Shown here: in pieces, positions 20,463 to 32,979 of the stretch
Layout of the letters: every line of letters begins with the position of its first letter
Position numbering within the stretch: the first letter of the stretch is position 1
Assembly: GCF_009664365.1 (NCBI RefSeq)
Contig: NZ_CP044310.1
Location: 4,901,001 to 4,965,000 of the forward strand
Length of the DNA: 64,000 nucleotides
Direction of reading: 5' to 3'
Origin: Paenibacillus xylanilyticus
GTDB lineage: Bacteria; Bacillota; Bacilli; Paenibacillales; Paenibacillaceae
Made by a program: the position numbers and the translations under genes
Notes under the pieces: model-generated
Databases searched by the model: none
Seen by the model: only the letters and a program-made list of their open reading frames with translations
What the model was told of the DNA's origin: nothing

Positions 20463-20660
20463 ATGAAATCTGGTAACGCAACTTGATTCTCCTTGCGGTA
20501 GAAAAGCGCTCTGTTCAGAGAAGTTGGGGCTCCGATTGTTCTATAATGAGACTTGCTCAATAGATCGGATCGGTTCTCTTACTGCTGACAGAGAAGAACA
20601 TAGCGTTAAATGGAAAAGTGAAGATGCTTGGTTAACGTTATACTAAATCCTTCTAGTAAA
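20463..20660. other. Non-coding stretch, possible dispersed repeat
   Basis: The first part of a 329-base gap has no convincing reading frame. It contains a short hairpin CTCTG-TT-CAGAG near 20510 and two related GAGAAG segments. It might be a degraded dispersed element, but nothing in this window repeats it, so this remains a guess. The rest of the gap holds the terminator at 20661-20694. Confidence 0.25.
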
Positions 20661-20694
20661 AAAAGCTCCTGCCATATATGTGGCGGGAGCTTTT
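20661..20694. terminator. Bidirectional rho-independent terminator
   Basis: AAAAGCTCCTGCCA and TGGCGGGAGCTTTT form a 14-bp stem (one mismatch or wobble) around a 6-base loop, with A- and T-rich flanks. It can serve the plus-strand membrane-protein pair and the minus-strand amidohydrolase gene that ends at 20792. Confidence 0.85.
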
Positions 20695-20791: not shown

Positions 20792-21670
20792 TTAACCCAG
20801 CTGTTCAATTCGCTGCTCTATGCGTGGAAATAAACGGAATGCATTCTCATAGAACACCTTGTCATGATGCTGCTCCGGCACAAGCCTGCGGATGAATTCG
20901 GCATACAGATCGATCGGTGCAAGCGGCCAGTCGGTTCCGAAGAGCATTTTCTCGTAGTGATCGGAATATACCAGCGCCCGGCGGAAATGGTCCATGAACA
21001 GCGGTTCATTCATGAATCGTTCAAAATGGGGACGATCCCCCACCACAAGGCCGGACAAATCGGCATATACGTTAGGATTCTTCGCCACCACTTCGGCGGC
21101 ATCCATCACCCAGGGATCACCCAAATGACAGATCATGAAGTTCACTCCCCGCTGTTGATAAGCTAACTCATCCACAGTCAGCGGATGGGCATACTTCAGC
21201 AATCCATTCATGGAGTAGGTGTCCCCCGTATGAATGACGACGGGTATCTTATACTTGGCTGCCAGCTCATAGATCGGAGTGTAAATCTTGTCATGGACAT
21301 AGTAATGATAGTACCCCGCGTACAGCTTGATACCCGCTACCTCGGGAGCCTGCAGCCTTGCTTCAATGCGGTCCAGTTCTTCCTGCGCGTGTTCACCGCC
21401 AAGCCGGTTCGGATTGACGCCTACGCATTCCATCAGAAAGGGAGGAACCGTTTCTTCCAGATCAAGTCCCATCGGATTCGGTGAACTGGAGTCCGGAAAG
21501 GCTCCCTTGGACTGCTCGGTTACTCCCATGCCAATACCGAGAATAACGTCGTTCTTGTCAAACTCCGCCTTAAGGCCCGCGGCAGAGTAATCGACTTGGG
21601 ACAGATCGATCGCGGTTCGATGGAAGCTGTCAATATCAGACAGATGAATGTGAATATCAATGATCGGCAT
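20792..21670 (-). CDS. Amidohydrolase family 2 (metal-dependent TIM-barrel hydrolase)
   Basis: This is a predicted metal-dependent hydrolase or decarboxylase of the amidohydrolase-2 group; the substrate is unknown. The 292-residue protein has the N-terminal metal site IDIHIHLSD, a KLYAGYYHYYV segment, the metal histidines in VVIHTGDTYS and MICHLGDPWV, and LFGTDWPLAP with the conserved Asp. The ATG at 21668-21670 has AAAGGAG seven to eight bases upstream. It overlaps the end of the upstream 1056-residue acetyltransferase fusion gene by 14 bases. The two are therefore translationally coupled and very likely work in one pathway. Confidence 0.86.
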   Translation of the reverse strand: MPIIDIHIHLSDIDSFHRTAIDLSQVDYSAAGLKAEFDKNDVILGIGMGVTEQSKGAFPDSSSPNPMGLDLEETVPPFLMECVGVNPNRLGGEHAQEELDRIEARLQAPEVAGIKLYAGYYHYYVHDKIYTPIYELAAKYKIPVVIHTGDTYSMNGLLKYAHPLTVDELAYQQRGVNFMICHLGDPWVMDAAEVVAKNPNVYADLSGLVVGDRPHFERFMNEPLFMDHFRRALVYSDHYEKMLFGTDWPLAPIDLYAEFIRRLVPEQHHDKVFYENAFRLFPRIEQRIEQLG

Positions 21671-24600
21671 GGGTGTTCTCCTTTTCAACGGTCGTGTTCC
21701 TAAAGGATAGCTTCAACAGGCTGCGGACATCTTCTGCATGCAGAGGAATCTGCCCTAAGACCAGATAGGTTGGTTTCATCCAGGCAGTCTCCCCATTGGA
21801 TACCGGGAGATGTTGATGCACATTGTGGCTGAGTACCTGGTTATTCACATATACCGACGGATTATGGTTGGGATAGGCATCTACGGCATGAAGCATGTTT
21901 TTACGCGTATCCGCACCTATTCGCAAGATTCCTTTCAATTGAAGACCTGCGTCCACCTTCCCCAAGGAGAACCGTCCTTGCTCCGGATGTTCCAGCCAGC
22001 CTTCGGCAAAGATGGGTGACGGCCCGAAGAAATGATCTTCGGTAAGCGAGTAATTCACCTGCGTCAACCCGGTTTCGTTCGTCACCGAATGCAGAGAACA
22101 AAGAACTGGCACCCCAGGCAGCATGAGGTAACGCTGTTGTACCGTGATCCCCCGATTCGCTTCCTGCTTCTCGATCCGGGTTGTCATGCAGATTCCTGTC
22201 CAGACGTTTCCGTGATCATCCTTCTGCTCCGTCCACGCTGCACTTCGGTACTCCTGCTGACGGCTGAAACCATTCATGCCGGGAATTCCCACACCAAGAC
22301 CGCCATACCATGGATTCCACCAGGAACGCGGAGCAGCTTCGGGATACGAACTGTCCAGCCATTCCTCTCCCTGATACATCAAGGAATGCACGACACTTCC
22401 GAACCCGGGTGCTGCTGCGATCGAGAGAACTCCATTGCTCACCGTGTACACCGGACCTGCCTGCCCTTCTTCAATCACACAGTTAACGGCGGATTGCGTC
22501 TTCGGGAACCAGAGAGCGGTCCGTTCCTGAATCCGATCCTCTCCGCGATATACGGCCCGAATCTTCCAGGCATGTTCACTGTTTTCCTTGGCCACGGTTT
22601 CCTCAGGGGAGAACTCCAACTGTACAGAGCGAAGGTCCTGTTCCCGGTTTAATTCCATATCTGCAACTTTAAACTCCGATGCACCACCGTGCTGCGCATA
22701 CAGCTCCAGATTTCCGGCTAGCGGTATCATTTTTCGCTCCATCCATTCGGCCTGCAGCTTGCCTCCCTCAAATGGATTGCCACCGCCCAGAGCCAGTTCG
22801 AGATGGTCATCCAGCACAGGTACAATCAGATCGCGTTCTTTACGTGCAAAAGAACGGAAATCCTGCCACTTAACGAACGTGTTCAACGCAAATACAGTCT
22901 TCTTGGTCTGTACAACAGCCCCTGCCGGCATCCGGCCAAGGTCATGCTCCAGCCCCAGTGTATATTCCGGACGAAGCAGCTTCAGTGAAGGGTCCCAATA
23001 GATACCACATGCTCCGTACGCTTCCTTGCAGAAAAGCCAGTTCTCCGTGATTTGGGCACTATCCCAATGGCCCGGATCGCTGGAATACGTATCACCCATG
23101 TCCACGTACCGACCTTGATACGGCAAAATTAGCCGGCTCCCGAAGAATCCGAAGTTGGTCATTAAACTCATATTCTCTTCCAGCTCTGTACTGCGCGTAT
23201 TGATTATTTCGTGGTTAAATTCCGCAATGCCGCTGGCAAACAACTTGACCACAGATTTAACCTGTAACCCCGAAAAGTCCTCCGATTCATAGAGAGCTTC
23301 AAAAACCTGACTGTCCCCTTCGGGATAGATGTTGACTTCTTTGGCTTGTTTCTTGGAAAACTCCTCGGCAAACGGCTTTCCCAGCTTCGGGTAGGTCCAC
23401 CAGAACGTATGGTGAGAGCTCGGATATTCGATCCACATCGTATTATCCTGTCTGCTCATATGAAGGGAGAATGCGCCATTCACAGCTACCCATTGATCCC
23501 CGTGCTCTCCGCCATAACGCCCTTGGGTTCCCTTCATCAGGACGGAGAGTTTACTTGTGAAAACGACTGGCTGTTGACCTGCCGGAACAGCTGTCACCTC
23601 CACCTTCCTCGAATAAAGTCCATACGAGCGCAGCATAAAGGATACGGGTATGGAAGCTTTACCCTTCGCAGGCACGGTGAGGCGTACCGAAGGTTCTGTC
23701 CATTCCAGGAATTCATCCTCGGGCAGGTCAAAAGTAAACTCAGCCTCGGCATCATAATTGTTCTCCACGTTCAGAACCAGCTCTGCCGGGACACCCGTGT
23801 ACAGTTCCTTCACGGGCAGCACCATGTTCAGCTTGGCTGGAAACTTCGGTGCAACGCCTATACGGAACTCCGCTTTCCTGCCGCCAATCAGCCATGTGCT
23901 CGCGACAACAGGGTGGGTTTTCATCAGGTTCTGTTCCTCTGTGACCGGGTCCAGATGGAACTCGCCTTCCACAACGATCGCTTCCCCCGGAGCCACTTTT
24001 CTTGCGGTGTCCAGTGCAAAGCGAATATTTTTGTTGTCCTGCCCCTTGATTTCAAACGTCTGCTCAGATGCTGAGCAGTTCTTGATTCGGTAGCGAACCT
24101 GGTATGTGGAGCCAAACACCAGATCATGGTCATCGATCTCTGTAGTGATTACGTAATCTGGCGTGTCGAGTGCGGTCAAGCCACGACCGGACTTCTCGAA
24201 CTCGGCGCGCAAGGAGATATCTCCCTTTTTCCAAGTGTAATCGAAGAAATCAAAGCCTCGCTCCCGCCGGCCATCCGGCTCAATGACAAGTTCACGCGTA
24301 CTATCGGTATACCAATCCAACACCTCGAAGTAGGGAGCGAGCGCTTCGGTCTGCAAGACGGTCGGGATGAAGTTCATCAGGTGCACATTGTCCTCTTTTT
24401 TCTCCCAGAAGAAACCGCACTTCTTGTACATCGGCACAGCCTTGGTGTTGCCTGCCCACGTGAACAGATCAAGGCGGGGCCACCCCGCTTCCACGGTTTT
24501 GCGAACGGCGTTCAGGATCAGATTGCGGCCGACCTTATGGCCATGATAATCGGGGCGCACGTTCAATAACGGTACATACAGCGCCCCTTCATCGAAACGG

Positions 24601-24827
24601 TAGTGGGCAAAGCTGCAAAAGCCAACCACTTCATGCTCATGAACTGCGAGAAACACATGCAGATTGGACGAACTCTCCATCTCCCGGCGCACGGTATCTT
24701 CTGTTCTCTGGTTCGTCCCTCCTCCCCAGCTTTCATTACTGCGGTTCCACATGTCTGCCAGTGCGGCAGCGTAGGAGTGATCGTATTCGATAATGCGGAT
24801 CTGTTCTAGATTTGAGGTGACTGCCAT
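21657..24827 (-). CDS. Large GNAT acetyltransferase fused to beta-sandwich and mutarotase-like domains
   Basis: This is an unusual 1056-residue fusion. Residues about 8-160 form a complete GNAT domain (ADMWNRSNESWGGG; LYVPLLNVRPDYHGHKVGRN as acetyl-CoA loop; NTKAVPMYKKCGFFWEKK). The next part, to about residue 440, contains CARDB/NEW3-like Ig beta-sandwich modules (ELVLNVENNYDAEAEFTFDL). The remaining 600 residues resemble the galactose-mutarotase-like, carbohydrate-handling beta-supersandwich (NGVLSIAAAPGFGSVVHSL; PRSWWNPWYGGLGVGIPGMN). No signal peptide is present, so it is cytoplasmic. The ATG has AAAGGGG upstream. It is coupled to the amidohydrolase by a 14-base overlap. A sugar or amino-sugar conjugate is a plausible substrate, but this is inference. 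Confidence 0.8.
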   Translation of the reverse strand: MAVTSNLEQIRIIEYDHSYAAALADMWNRSNESWGGGTNQRTEDTVRREMESSSNLHVFLAVHEHEVVGFCSFAHYRFDEGALYVPLLNVRPDYHGHKVGRNLILNAVRKTVEAGWPRLDLFTWAGNTKAVPMYKKCGFFWEKKEDNVHLMNFIPTVLQTEALAPYFEVLDWYTDSTRELVIEPDGRRERGFDFFDYTWKKGDISLRAEFEKSGRGLTALDTPDYVITTEIDDHDLVFGSTYQVRYRIKNCSASEQTFEIKGQDNKNIRFALDTARKVAPGEAIVVEGEFHLDPVTEEQNLMKTHPVVASTWLIGGRKAEFRIGVAPKFPAKLNMVLPVKELYTGVPAELVLNVENNYDAEAEFTFDLPEDEFLEWTEPSVRLTVPAKGKASIPVSFMLRSYGLYSRKVEVTAVPAGQQPVVFTSKLSVLMKGTQGRYGGEHGDQWVAVNGAFSLHMSRQDNTMWIEYPSSHHTFWWTYPKLGKPFAEEFSKKQAKEVNIYPEGDSQVFEALYESEDFSGLQVKSVVKLFASGIAEFNHEIINTRSTELEENMSLMTNFGFFGSRLILPYQGRYVDMGDTYSSDPGHWDSAQITENWLFCKEAYGACGIYWDPSLKLLRPEYTLGLEHDLGRMPAGAVVQTKKTVFALNTFVKWQDFRSFARKERDLIVPVLDDHLELALGGGNPFEGGKLQAEWMERKMIPLAGNLELYAQHGGASEFKVADMELNREQDLRSVQLEFSPEETVAKENSEHAWKIRAVYRGEDRIQERTALWFPKTQSAVNCVIEEGQAGPVYTVSNGVLSIAAAPGFGSVVHSLMYQGEEWLDSSYPEAAPRSWWNPWYGGLGVGIPGMNGFSRQQEYRSAAWTEQKDDHGNVWTGICMTTRIEKQEANRGITVQQRYLMLPGVPVLCSLHSVTNETGLTQVNYSLTEDHFFGPSPIFAEGWLEHPEQGRFSLGKVDAGLQLKGILRIGADTRKNMLHAVDAYPNHNPSVYVNNQVLSHNVHQHLPVSNGETAWMKPTYLVLGQIPLHAEDVRSLLKLSFRNTTVEKENTHADH

Positions 24828-24940: not shown

Positions 24941-24958
24941 ATAGTATGATCATACTAT
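24941..24958. promoter_or_regulatory. Perfect 18-bp palindrome covering the predicted -10 box
   Basis: ATAGTATGATCATACTAT is its own reverse complement over 18 bases. It covers the -10 hexamer of the predicted promoter of the acetyltransferase fusion gene, 114 bases upstream of the start codon. This is a probable operator for an unidentified regulator. Confidence 0.6.
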
Positions 24959-24977
24959 AAATGGGAAACATTTTCAG
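24949..24977 (-). promoter_or_regulatory. Predicted promoter of the acetyltransferase fusion/amidohydrolase operon
   Basis: On the minus strand CTGAAA (24972-24977) and TATGAT (24949-24954) are 17 bases apart. The hexamers match sigmaA consensus moderately. Two independent palindromes overlap them. The rest of the 359-base gap up to 25187 holds one more palindrome and the terminator of the AbrB-like gene. Confidence 0.5.
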
Positions 24978-25186: not shown

Positions 25187-25453
25187 TTAAAGCAACTCGT
25201 TCCCTTCCGTGCCAAAGTCTATTTCATCGTGTCGTTTATCCTCATTCATTTTAGAGAGCAGAGTCTTTAGATGGGAACGCAGTTCCTCATTGGAATTGGT
25301 CAGTTTGTTTTTTGGGCGCAACAACAATTCATTATCTGCCGTCACTAAAATCTCAATTTCCGAACTTTCCTCCAGATTAAGACGTTTAAGTACTTGGTTA
25401 GGAATACAAATTGCAATACTATTTCCCCATTTCCTAAGTATGGCTGTAGTCAT
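25187..25453 (-). CDS. AbrB/MazE-family DNA-binding protein without adjacent toxin
   Basis: This is a small swapped-hairpin DNA-binding protein of the antitoxin type. The 88-residue protein begins MTTAILRKWGNSIAICIPNQ, the hallmark of MazE antitoxins, continues with VLKRLNLEESSEIEILV, and has a polar acidic C-terminal tail of the kind that wraps a toxin. The ATG at 25451-25453 is chosen for this family N-terminus, with AAAGG 11 bases upstream; a TTG twelve codons earlier has no ribosome binding site. No MazF- or PIN-type toxin gene is next to it on either side, so it is an orphan regulator or a remnant of a toxin-antitoxin pair. Confidence 0.8.
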   Translation of the reverse strand: MTTAILRKWGNSIAICIPNQVLKRLNLEESSEIEILVTADNELLLRPKNKLTNSNEELRSHLKTLLSKMNEDKRHDEIDFGTEGNELL

Positions 25454-25619
25454 GGCAATCTCATACCTTTCGTTTGATAGTTGCTCCAATTATACCTCAC
25501 CCTGAAATATTTTCTTAAAAACCAAAAAAATGCATTTATCCGTCCGTAAAATGAAAAATTTATCCGTCTACGGCTAGCTAAAATAATAGCATCATATATC
25601 TCAGAATCAATAAATAAAA

Positions 25620-28500: not shown

Positions 28501-30894
28501 TTAATTATTTACTAGCTCTCTCTTAACATTGAATTGTAGAGTGTTTTTACCGTACTTTTGAAATTTATATCTAATATATCGAGATATATGATCTTCATGA
28601 GTAGAAAGTATTATTTGTTTGTCAGGGAACTCATTCCTTAATAATTCCGTTAACGAAGCCATATTCAATTCATCCATTGTTTGCACAGGATCATCAATAA
28701 GAATTAAGCCAAGTCCTTTATTACCGTAAATTTTATTCAGTGCTAGAGTAAAAGAAATTACAAGTGAAGATACTTGACCAGAACTAAAATAATTAATTGC
28801 GTCATGTTCACTCATGTCATCTGACACAAATTTAATATTTTTTGCCTCACCTGATTCAGCCTCTTTTATGAAGACTCCTAAACCTTTTTGATAATATTGA
28901 ATAATTTTCCCACTATAAATATAAAAAGGGATTTCTATATCTTTCATTATGCGATTCCAATGTTGCTTTATTCCTTTATCGTATTCATCAATGATATCAG
29001 ATAGATTATTATTTTTATCTTCTAAGGCAGAACTTTTTCTCTCTAAAGAAGAAATATTAATTTCTATTTTTTTCAATTCATTAGTATTCCCTGTAAAATA
29101 TATGTGTTCAATATAATTTATTTTTTCCTGAACTTGTTCTTGAGTTACCAGTCTTACTCTCTCAGGAGATTCTGAGAAATTTTCTTTGTAAATGCTAAGG
29201 AATTCATTAAATTTACTACCACCTGCATCATATATTTCATCAATGTGAATTCTTTCAAATGATATCATTTGAATTACATGATCGGTACGTGTAACCAAAT
29301 CTTCAGGTATCTCGCGCTCTTTTTGGAAATATTTATTTACATCAATTCTTTTACTTTGACACCATTCAACAAATTTAGTAATTCTATTTTTAATTTTATT
29401 CGCATTCGATATCTCTTCAAAGAACTTGTTATCGATTCTATGAGTAGGATTCTGTAAGTAATCATTTACGTAGTTAATTATTTTTTGAAAGAAATTCTCA
29501 TAAAGTTGCTTAGTTGTTTCTTCAACTCGCTTTGTAGAAACATCATAAAATTTAGAGAAATCTGCTTTTTTATCCTCAATAGCCCTTATTAGAATGTCCT
29601 GTTCTTCCCAATTTTGCCCACATAAAGGACAGATGCTATCTATTATGTGTGTGTGGCTTTGAGTTAACTTTACAAATTTCTCTATAAGTTGATTACGTGA
29701 GTCATTTAATTCTTTAATTAAAGTAGATAAATTTCCGGCAATTTTCTGATCAGTAGTTATCTGAATGATTAGAGTATTTATTTCACCAAAATAATTGTCT
29801 ATTGGGAAGTTAACCTCTTTTAAAATATCAAAATTTAATAAGGACGGATTCTTTAGAAATGTTTCTGGTGAGAGCTTTAACAGAAGTTCATTCAGTTTTT
29901 CTTCAGTTTGCTTAATAGCCTTAATTTCTTCAAACTCATTGATGTGTAATCCCGTCAAAATAGCTGACCTAATTATAGAGTTATTATCACTAGAAACGGC
30001 AAAATCAATTTGCGAATTGTGTTTGGCGTTTAGGAAATCTTGAAACATAGTTATAAACTCATACATTAACCGTAACTCTTTCAAGATTATATCGCGGGAT
30101 TCTCTCGTGTTAATTATTGGTAATTCAATATCCCACGGTTTAGGGATTTCAAGATGAGGTAATAGCGGATGAAACGCTGTATATCTCACACTGTCTTTGT
30201 CGAAAGTTTGTAACTCATTTATCAAATAATTATATCTGTTTCTCGCTTCTGTTAAACTCTTGGAAACTTTAGTTGAAACTTGTCTTAACTTTGATTTCAA
30301 TTTAATCAAGCTTCGCTTCGTATCTTCTTCTTGTTTCGTGTCAAACAGTTGCCCTACCTCTTCCATCCTCTCCTTTGATTTTCTTTTTAAAAAATGAGTA
30401 TTTTCTTCTTGCTGAATATAATAGAACAGATTATAGAATCGAGGTAAATCAGTTGTATTAAAAAGTTCTGATATTCTGTCTTGATTAATTTCTTCGTACT
30501 CCTCTTCGGGAGAGTCAAAAGATGATAGTAGAAATGTTTCAAACTTAAAAAAGTCCTCAGTACGAAATCTATGTAGTTTATTGTTAGCTTTCAATCGTTT
30601 AAGTAATGTAAATTGTTTTTCATTTGAACCAAATTCTATTTTAATGATGCAATCACGTTTTGTATTTTTCCTGAGCAAATCGACTCCAAATGTTGACCTT
30701 CCGTCATCAGATCGAATACGCTGAATTGTTCCTGTAAGCATTAATTCTATTGCATCAAAAAGGGTTGTTTTACCAAAACCATTGGGTCCATCTAGCATGA
30801 TAAGATTGTAATCCTGTAAATCGATTTCAAGATTGAAATTGTCAATTAGTTTAAAATTTTGAATTGATATTTTCTTGAGAAACAAATCATTCAT
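28501..30894 (-). CDS. SMC/Rad50-like ABC ATPase of an ABC-3C/Lamassu-type conflict system
   Basis: This is a predicted DNA-end or DNA-structure sensing ATPase. The 797-residue protein has a Walker A motif at residues 36-43 (GPNGFGKT), a long coiled-coil middle with a Rad50-like hook CPLCGQNW (Cys422 and Cys425), an ABC signature region FSSGQVSSLVISFTLAL and Walker B LILIDDPVQTMDE (Asp734-Asp735), with the D-loop and H-motif STHEDH at the end. The ATG at 30892-30894 follows GGGGGAAG. It overlaps the preceding gene by 8 bases, so all three genes are coupled. In ABC-3C and Lamassu systems this component (LmuB-like) detects invader DNA and releases the effector; that role is inferred. Strikingly AT-rich. 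Confidence 0.85.
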   Translation of the reverse strand: MNDLFLKKISIQNFKLIDNFNLEIDLQDYNLIMLDGPNGFGKTTLFDAIELMLTGTIQRIRSDDGRSTFGVDLLRKNTKRDCIIKIEFGSNEKQFTLLKRLKANNKLHRFRTEDFFKFETFLLSSFDSPEEEYEEINQDRISELFNTTDLPRFYNLFYYIQQEENTHFLKRKSKERMEEVGQLFDTKQEEDTKRSLIKLKSKLRQVSTKVSKSLTEARNRYNYLINELQTFDKDSVRYTAFHPLLPHLEIPKPWDIELPIINTRESRDIILKELRLMYEFITMFQDFLNAKHNSQIDFAVSSDNNSIIRSAILTGLHINEFEEIKAIKQTEEKLNELLLKLSPETFLKNPSLLNFDILKEVNFPIDNYFGEINTLIIQITTDQKIAGNLSTLIKELNDSRNQLIEKFVKLTQSHTHIIDSICPLCGQNWEEQDILIRAIEDKKADFSKFYDVSTKRVEETTKQLYENFFQKIINYVNDYLQNPTHRIDNKFFEEISNANKIKNRITKFVEWCQSKRIDVNKYFQKEREIPEDLVTRTDHVIQMISFERIHIDEIYDAGGSKFNEFLSIYKENFSESPERVRLVTQEQVQEKINYIEHIYFTGNTNELKKIEINISSLERKSSALEDKNNNLSDIIDEYDKGIKQHWNRIMKDIEIPFYIYSGKIIQYYQKGLGVFIKEAESGEAKNIKFVSDDMSEHDAINYFSSGQVSSLVISFTLALNKIYGNKGLGLILIDDPVQTMDELNMASLTELLRNEFPDKQIILSTHEDHISRYIRYKFQKYGKNTLQFNVKRELVNN

Positions 30895-31600
30895 TATTAA
30901 CTTCCCCCAACCATTCATTTAACAATTCATTTTCTTCTTCATCATTACAATTTTCAAGTTTTCCAATTAGATTTAGAGCGCTGTTTCTGACAGAATACAG
31001 TTCTAACTGTTTCAAACGATTGTCGATCCTCATTGATAAATTATCCAATTCCTCTTCTTCTCCTCGATACTGTAAGAACGGCAGTTTAATAAAAAGTCGT
31101 GTTGTTAAATGAAAAGCAGTTGATTCCACTGGGTGCTTTTTGAAATCATAGAACTTCTCTTTATCATTAAGTAAACTATACAAACCTTTAGTAATTCCTT
31201 TTGCTCTATGATGCTCATTAAACTCCTGCAGTTCTGCGTCCGCATATGGTAAAACTAATTTTCTAAAATGATAAGGATCTTCTTCCACTTCAAATATACT
31301 CCTGTTAAGCTTCTCATTATAAGTAAAAGCAGCTCTTTTTAAACAGATAATCAGAGTGGAATTTTTATCCATTCTTCTGTCATAACCAGTAGGTAGTCGC
31401 TTTAGCTCCACAAAGTATTGATTCATTAATTCATTCAGATTTTCAAAATTCACATCTTCATTTTCAAATAATACTAGGAAAAATCCTAACTTTGATGAAT
31501 CTAATTTAACAGCCATAAATCCGGACTTTTCTTCTAAAAATTCTGGTTCAACTACATTGAATTTATGTTCAATGAATAAATCCTTCAAAAAATGTATCAT
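30887..31600 (-). CDS. Middle component of the ABC-3C/Lamassu-type system
   Basis: This is a 237-residue protein with no recognised catalytic motif. It begins MIHFLKDLFIEHKFNVVEPE and includes RLPTGYDRRMDKNSTLIICL and a C-terminal helical region rich in Glu and Asn. Its place is what identifies it: it sits between the effector and the SMC-like ATPase genes, starting within the effector stop codon (TAATG, one base shared) and overlapping the ATPase gene by 8 bases. The middle subunit (MC, LmuC-like) of these systems bridges ATPase and effector. Sequence alone gives only modest support, so the family call rests largely on context. Confidence 0.7.
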   Translation of the reverse strand: MIHFLKDLFIEHKFNVVEPEFLEEKSGFMAVKLDSSKLGFFLVLFENEDVNFENLNELMNQYFVELKRLPTGYDRRMDKNSTLIICLKRAAFTYNEKLNRSIFEVEEDPYHFRKLVLPYADAELQEFNEHHRAKGITKGLYSLLNDKEKFYDFKKHPVESTAFHLTTRLFIKLPFLQYRGEEEELDNLSMRIDNRLKQLELYSVRNSALNLIGKLENCNDEEENELLNEWLGEVNNE

Positions 31601-32979
31601 TACTCAAGCTCCTTTCTTGCTTGAGGGAAGTTAATCATTCTTATCCGTTTTATTTTCATAAATTTATCATCCTCTGATTCGTTATCACTCTCGAGTTCTT
31701 CATTTGAGATATGAGTATATTTATATGCTGCTTCTTCTAAAGATTGCATTGGTATATGTGAGGAAATCATTACATCTATCTCATGCAAATCTTCAATATC
31801 TGAGTTCATCATTATATCTTTAGCTATTCGGCTAACTTGTTTTTCATCTAGCAACTCATCATCGATTAATGATGTAGGCCTTTCATGCAACGTAGTAGGC
31901 AAATATACTAAATTTAGGCCGTTCTCATCTTTTCTCAAAAAAACCGACTGATCATTATGGAGCGGCTCTCTAAAAACATAGAGTGCTTTAAGTAAAGGGT
32001 CCCGTATTCCTTGAAATGGAATAAGACCATGAAAGGTTCTAAGATTTATTTCGCTCGCTTGAACATGAGGTGTCCATTTTTTACATAACTTTAAAAATGC
32101 ATTATCATCTACTGATCTTACATCATCATAAAATGTCTTAACTCTTTGAAAAGCAATAGAGCTAGCTTCATTTTGATTATCATATAAAAATTGTTCACAA
32201 ACAGAACAGTATAACTCTCGTAAGACATATGTATAATATTGTTTACTAGATTCCTCAAAATTACAATTTAGAGCTTCATAAATGTCACTAAATGGAATTC
32301 TTCTATTGTCCTTGGTAACTTTACCTTCTTGCAAAAATTTATGCCTTTCAGAAACATGGTTATCAAGTATAGAAAGCAAAAAATAATAAAGACGATTATA
32401 ATGTTCTTCGCTTCTAGATATCCCCCTCTCCTTATAATATCTGGATAATTGAAAAATAATTCGATTTTTAATTTCTGTAAGATTACAATGATTTAAATCT
32501 TGATCATATGTAAACAAATCAAATTTTTCAAAAACTGATTCATAAAGATCATTGTCTATAACATATTGATAATACTCATTTGGATTCAATTGATTTTCAG
32601 AACCAGTTGCTGTAGGGGCAGTGAGGTTTTTGTATCTTTCTCTTAGAGTTGTTTTATCAGGAAGTTTCTCAGTAGTATGCAAATAAGCTTTGTCGATATG
32701 AGATTTTATTGCAAGTTTACCTAAAAGAGTCCATACAGCATCTTTATATTCGCTTGGGGCAGTAGAATTAAAAGTTTTAACTTGATGTATTGATACTTCC
32801 TTATCATTATAAATTACTGTAAAATCCTCTAAGTGCTCTAATTCCAATTCGAATTTTTTTACATTTTCATTTACTAAACTTTTGTCATTTATTATTTTTA
32901 GCACAGTGTAAATAGCCGTTTTACCTTGATAAGAGTAACCATTCCAACTATTTGTTGCATCATGATTTAGAGACTTCAT
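31600..32979 (-). CDS. Probable nuclease effector of the ABC-3C/Lamassu-type system (Cap4/DUF4297-like N-terminus)
   Basis: This is the first gene of the island, encoding 459 residues. The N-terminus SWNGYSYQGKTAIYTVLKII, followed by ELELEHLEDF and VSIHQVKTF, has the layout of a PD-(D/E)xK nuclease of the Cap4/DUF4297 type. Glu48, Asp52 and Gln66-x-Lys68 are the candidate active-site residues. The rest of the chain is a helical domain with a charged Glu/Ser-rich end (NEELESDNESEDDKF), presumably the part that binds the other two components. AAGGATGATAAACT precedes the ATG. Low GC content fits horizontal transfer. The effector activity has not been seen, only inferred from motif spacing and gene order. 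Confidence 0.72.
   Translation of the reverse strand: MKSLNHDATNSWNGYSYQGKTAIYTVLKIINDKSLVNENVKKFELELEHLEDFTVIYNDKEVSIHQVKTFNSTAPSEYKDAVWTLLGKLAIKSHIDKAYLHTTEKLPDKTTLRERYKNLTAPTATGSENQLNPNEYYQYVIDNDLYESVFEKFDLFTYDQDLNHCNLTEIKNRIIFQLSRYYKERGISRSEEHYNRLYYFLLSILDNHVSERHKFLQEGKVTKDNRRIPFSDIYEALNCNFEESSKQYYTYVLRELYCSVCEQFLYDNQNEASSIAFQRVKTFYDDVRSVDDNAFLKLCKKWTPHVQASEINLRTFHGLIPFQGIRDPLLKALYVFREPLHNDQSVFLRKDENGLNLVYLPTTLHERPTSLIDDELLDEKQVSRIAKDIMMNSDIEDLHEIDVMISSHIPMQSLEEAAYKYTHISNEELESDNESEDDKFMKIKRIRMINFPQARKELE

Follow-up and report, generated by a model that had tools for sequence, protein, structure and literature searches.

Fusions of GNAT-type acetyltransferases with carbohydrate-active domains have been described before. 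In Rhizomucor miehei, the fungal GH3 glucosaminidase RmNag is fused to a working glucosamine N-acetyltransferase of the GNAT type (PMC4680927). In human O-GlcNAcase, a glycosidase is joined to a GNAT-like domain, which is reported to be a pseudo-enzyme (PMC3814719, PMC12494797).

We analysed a window of 64,000 nucleotides from Paenibacillus xylanilyticus (NZ_CP044310.1, positions 4,901,001 to 4,965,000); coordinates below count from its first letter. The window contains the gene of GNATX, in which a GNAT domain is followed by Ig-like and galactose-mutarotase-like domains, and the gene of AH2, a predicted amidohydrolase (Table 1). RmNag resembles GNATX in that a GNAT region is joined to carbohydrate-active domains. 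It differs in its GH3 hydrolase part, in the C-terminal position of its GNAT, and in that an amidohydrolase partner is undescribed (PMC4680927). The likeness is one of architecture, and in this sense RmNag may be taken as a precedent for a GNAT–sugar enzyme fusion. O-GlcNAcase shares the joining of a GNAT-like domain to a glycosidase, whereas its glycosidase part and domain order are different and its acetyltransferase-like domain is reported to be a pseudo-enzyme (PMC3814719, PMC12494797). In the open-access literature, we found no description of the GNATX architecture or of the GNATX-AH2 pair, in line with the sequence-only reading, which knew of no named system with such a pairing.

Table 1. 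Features of the GNATX-AH2 locus (window coordinates)
Feature	Position	Strand	Details
Promoter-like element	24941..24977	(-)	perfect palindrome ATAGTATGATCATACTAT at 24941-24958, 18 bases
GNATX	21657..24827	(-)	1056 aa; order GNAT - Ig - Ig - supersandwich - Ig - supersandwich
GNAT domain	24363..24806	(-)	residues 8-155; best conserved part of GNATX
Two Ig-like domains	23535..24272	(-)	residues about 186-324 and 325-431; AF2 model, Foldseek
First galactose-mutarotase-like supersandwich	22812..23534	(-)	residues about 432-672; separate AF2 model
Third Ig-like domain	22503..22811	(-)	residues about 673-775; LacZ domain-4-like position
Second galactose-mutarotase-like supersandwich	21705..22502	(-)	residues about 776-1041; SWWNPWxGG motif
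GNATX end / AH2 start overlap	21657..21670	(-)	14 bases
AH2	20792..21670	(-)	Amidohydro_2 metal-dependent hydrolase, 292 aa
Terminator-like hairpin with T-run	20658..20694	(-)	about 100 bases past AH2; read from sequence

Domains of GNATX and AH2

GNATX starts at an ATG with a good ribosome-binding site (aaaggggatagagacATG). The whole-protein AlphaFold2 (AF2) model, with 42 homologues as input, had a mean pLDDT of 85.6 and a pTM of 0.69, a value that leaves it uncertain how the domains are placed relative to one another. The ~900 residues beyond the GNAT domain matched nothing named in Pfam, NCBIfam or PDB sequences, and residues 165-1056 had no sequence-level relative in the PDB. Judged by its full-length homologues, about 30-96% identical, the architecture is far beyond chance. 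Among 17 divergent members, the GNAT domain was conserved best, followed by the linker and the first Ig domain; mean pairwise identities were 61% for the GNAT domain, 46% for the first Ig domain and 23-32% for the remaining beta domains, with the third Ig-like domain conserved least. The open reading frame, Pfam and the models agree on the fusion of a GNAT to beta domains in a 1056-residue protein that the sequence-only reading had put forward. The lack of an export signal was also borne out, since 19-residue hydropathy near the N terminus did not exceed 0.02; GNATX is thus a cytoplasmic-looking protein.

The GNAT assignment rests on a match of residues 27-139 to the Pfam profile Acetyltransf_1 (PF00583; E=4.9e-13, 49.8 bits against a gathering cut-off of 20.7). 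In the 17 divergent homologues, 42 of 148 positions of the domain were invariant. Among these was Y134 in motif B, which we take to be the usual general-acid position of GNAT enzymes. GNATX departs from the superfamily in its fused beta region and in motif A, where the loop reads HGHKVG (pattern HGxKxG) against a consensus of Q/R-x-x-G-x-G/A. The fourth position (K98) was Lys rather than Gly in 41 of 42 homologues, and the final Gly was invariant. All GNAT matches to NCBIfam equivalog models were below the cut-offs and comprised small-molecule and protein acetyltransferases; neither NCBIfam nor solved structures gave GNATX a functional name.

The limits of the Ig-like domains were set by DSSP and are approximate. 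In Foldseek searches, the first pair resembled tandem Ig-type domains and LacZ. The first supersandwich, modelled separately (pLDDT 93, pTM 0.90), aligned over residues 430-674 with the galactose mutarotase superfamily at Z of about 13-15; its matches were galactosaminidase domains, GalM, GH38 and GH97. Residues 777-1046 matched galactose mutarotases and their relatives with a best Z of 19.8, and Bacillus subtilis GalM with Z=18.9 (233 residues, rmsd 3.2 Å); the SWWNPWxGG motif of this second supersandwich is conserved. In these predicted models, the C-terminal part has a carbohydrate-enzyme-type fold and not that of an unrelated scaffold, and the carbohydrate-type beta domains of the sequence-only reading correspond to the GalM superfamily in both supersandwiches.

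The resemblance to GalM and LacZ domain 5 is one of fold, with about 5-14% sequence identity and a fused GNAT that sets GNATX apart. Each supersandwich has 13-19 invariant residues, many of them Trp, which suggests a kept pocket. The catalytic histidines of GalM are His96 and His170 in the Lactococcus lactis enzyme. In the alignment of GNATX homologues, no conserved His was found in the first supersandwich or in the second, where the best column had His in 21 of 42 homologues; the absence of GalM-type histidines was judged by alignment and not by superposed positions. None of 31 GNATX members matched the aldose 1-epimerase Pfam profile. Mutarotase activity is unlikely because neither supersandwich has a conserved His, and the mutarotase-like domains would at best be binding or structural modules. 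A supersandwich can be non-enzymatic, as in the periplasmic domain of YidC, which was also among the structural matches; the fold itself does not show function.

AH2 matched the Amidohydro_2 profile with E=8.4e-27 (95.1 bits, cut-off 26.4), in keeping with the amidohydrolase-2 gene recognised earlier from the sequence. The mechanical open reading frame begins at TTG 21688; the start is most probably ATG 21670, because homologues and a ribosome-binding site (aaggagaacacccATG) favour it. H7, H9, K115, H147, H182 and D247 were invariant in 17 divergent members. They include the metal ligands (the HxH pair H7 and H9, two further His, H147 and H182, and D247), so that AH2 is by sequence a member of the Amidohydro_2/COG2159-type hydrolases with the full ligand set. 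The nearest solved relative is 3irs (BB4693), a structure without assigned function, and no characterised Amidohydro_2/COG2159-type member near enough to indicate the substrate was found.

Linkage, neighbours and distribution

In Paenibacillus and related bacteria, the pairing of GNATX with AH2 is genuine and highly conserved. In 118 of 132 homologous loci, a set that counts some genomes twice, AH2 was directly downstream of GNATX, and the identical 14-base overlap was present in 58 of these 118. The 14 others were G140, with both genes unlinked, G147, where a contig end cuts the locus, and 12 loci from outside Bacilli. In the species collection, the genes were adjacent at each of the 79 named loci that were fetched, mostly with a gap of -14 to +48 bases. 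Among 150 related genomes, the full-length GNATX architecture occurred in 63 (it was also found in scattered Clostridia), and AH2 was present in 63/63 of these vs 1/87 of the others (Fisher p=4.7e-42, with kinship ignored), immediately downstream in 61. Over 77 loci, the percent identities of GNATX and AH2 to the window versions were correlated with r=0.93. The overlap of 14 bases in the sequence-only reading is exact with the AH2 start at ATG 21670. The linkage it assumed stands in the related genomes (61/63). Outside Bacilli it mostly breaks down, with the two genes lying apart or AH2 missing.

The promoter-like element lies about 115-150 bases ahead of GNATX, and its core ATAGTATGATAAGA is kept in most Paenibacillus relatives, whichever gene stands upstream. 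The hairpin past AH2 was read directly from the sequence and is absent from the listing of a simple scan. MFS and ROK genes stand upstream of GNATX in the window, an arrangement common to one Paenibacillus subclade only; they were rejected as operon members, as the synteny is confined to that subclade and inserts often lie between. No constant carbohydrate gene and no constant recycling gene was found among the neighbours of the pair. A DedA/VTT-domain gene was near it in 20 loci, which may be chance because the family is common.

Several other features were noted upstream. A MazE-like antitoxin gene lies at 25187-25489 (-) of the window, with no adjoining MazF-size open reading frame, and in several relatives, among them P. 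illinoisensis (L086), a MazF/PemK-like frame (cluster c16, assigned by eye) lies between MFS and GNATX. About 1.3 kb upstream of GNATX, and in its orientation, three loci (L094, L096, L119) have an extra fragment corresponding to residues 183-263 of GNATX (80-83% identity); the MazF-like insert lies between fragment and GNATX, which looks like partial duplication around an insertion. The stretch 28501-32979 (-) contains three genes with matches to LmuB, LmuC and LmuA, from Lamassu-type defence systems, and to Pfam ABC-3C components. PADLOC matched neither GNATX nor AH2 to known anti-phage defence proteins, which rules against a defence function of the pair.

GNATX also occurs in Brevibacillus, Fictibacillus, a Cytobacillus plasmid and Clostridia-like lineages. 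The plasmid homologue is annotated only as 'GNAT family N-acetyltransferase' and has guaC next to it, not AH2. One Clostridia-like class had GNATX in 10 of 13 genomes; AH2 was found, unlinked, in 2 of the 8 GNATX genomes searched (G445-G447 left out), so a dependence of GNATX on AH2 cannot be general. In G296, both genes are present ~23 kb apart. AH2 relatives also occur without GNATX, and no constant partner was found near Clostridia GNATX or near AH2 without GNATX. From this distribution we conclude that GNATX plays a core role of its own, with AH2 as its dedicated partner in Bacilli.

Three AH2 relatives from Bacillota (L198, L199, L203; about 36-38% identity) lie near a queE-like gene, recognised by eye; two of the genomes are Spo0A-negative among the matches listed, or missing from the positives. 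These cases were too few for the queE-like neighbours to serve as a functional clue. At L201:7469-10591, an AH2 homologue without GNATX stands between what appear by eye to be two opposite-strand parts of a larC-like gene. At L174:7223-12486, a distant GNATX homologue follows a DUF1028 gene and precedes, with a 1-base overlap, an Amidohydro_3 gene, another amidohydrolase type than the Amidohydro_2 of AH2.

Possible roles of the pair

We tentatively favour, at less than even confidence, a reading in which the pair is a two-gene operon whose products serve a route of acetylation inside the cell. The substrate would be a carbohydrate or glycoconjugate that bears an amine and is held by the beta domains of GNATX, which would N-acetylate it; AH2 would take part in the same route. 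GNATX would transfer the acetyl group from acetyl-CoA, and the tandem supersandwich region would bind or position the substrate and not act as a catalytic mutarotase. Translational coupling to GNATX would yield AH2 from the shared mRNA, and AH2 would hydrolyse the same compound in a metal-dependent reaction before or after acetylation; examples would be ring opening of a cyclic amide or lactone, or removal of an acyl group. We infer the carbohydrate nature of the substrate from predicted folds only, and the catalytic activities and the order of steps are likewise our proposal. The conserved GNAT core and its invariant Tyr argue for an N-acetyltransferase, and the likeness of the supersandwiches to GalM, LacZ domain 5 and glycosidase domains, their invariant residues and the RmNag precedent argue for a carbohydrate; that this fold is no proof of function and that no carbohydrate gene is a constant neighbour count against the latter. 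The AH2 metal ligands, the co-occurrence, adjacency and identity correlation, and the pair's own upstream element and hairpin point to a two-gene route, against which stand the few Clostridia-like GNATX genomes with AH2 (2/8) and the AH2 relatives without GNATX.

Nearly as likely as the carbohydrate explanation is that the beta region is a scaffold, an oligomerisation or partner-docking platform, possibly for AH2, and that GNATX acetylates a non-sugar amine. Candidate substrates would then include toxic amines, small metabolites and proteins, with AH2 as a second enzyme of detoxification or metabolite repair. Such a division agrees with the strong conservation of the GNAT and first Ig domains beside variable other beta domains, with the missing histidines of both supersandwiches, with the sub-cut-off matches to small-molecule and protein acetyltransferases, and with the frequent lack of carbohydrate genes in the vicinity. 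However, the 13-19 invariant, often aromatic positions per supersandwich exceed the need of a spacer.

Salvage of cell-wall amino sugars, in which AH2 would open a cyclic amide, for instance muramic lactam, or an amide related to it, and the freed amine would be re-acetylated by GNATX to let the fragment back into recycling, seems improbable to us. An amidohydrolase and an N-acetyltransferase with sugar-enzyme folds would suit ring opening followed by re-acetylation, and PMC4680927 cites glucosamine N-acetyltransferases of bacteria whose substrates are de-acetylated peptidoglycan fragments. GNATX genomes are nearly all Spo0A-positive, but this link is uninformative, since Spo0A was found in 86% of the phylum as sampled; moreover, AH2 relatives are found in Spo0A-negative genomes and recycling genes are not constant neighbours. 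A spore-specific function was rejected because genes for Spo0A and of the CwlD type are so widespread in the sampled phylum that they carry no information on it. We give hardly any credence to chance synteny, by which GNATX and AH2 would either belong with MFS and ROK, their upstream neighbours, or share nothing. The MFS and ROK genes do stand upstream in the window and in one subclade, but elsewhere they are missing or separated by inserts, whereas GNATX-AH2 stays intact down to ~35% GNATX identity and the conserved element lies directly before GNATX; co-occurrence, adjacency and the identity correlation already contradict it.

Returning to the carbohydrate reading, it is conceivable, though in our view unlikely, that GNATX represents a new family of carbohydrate-processing N-acetyltransferases in which the tandem supersandwich presents a glycan-type substrate to the GNAT site, and which in Bacilli would work with a dedicated metal hydrolase in two-step salvage or repair, cell-wall sugars of de-acetylated or lactam type being one example of what is processed. 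Under the generic GNAT label, as on the homologue checked, a protein of six domains that Bacilli and Clostridia have retained goes unnoticed, as does the hydrolase that co-occurs with it near-perfectly in Bacilli. Should a sugar amine prove to be the substrate, GNATX-AH2 would be a clear two-enzyme assay target, and soil Bacillota would have a further intracellular route, for salvage of amino sugars or of the cell wall.
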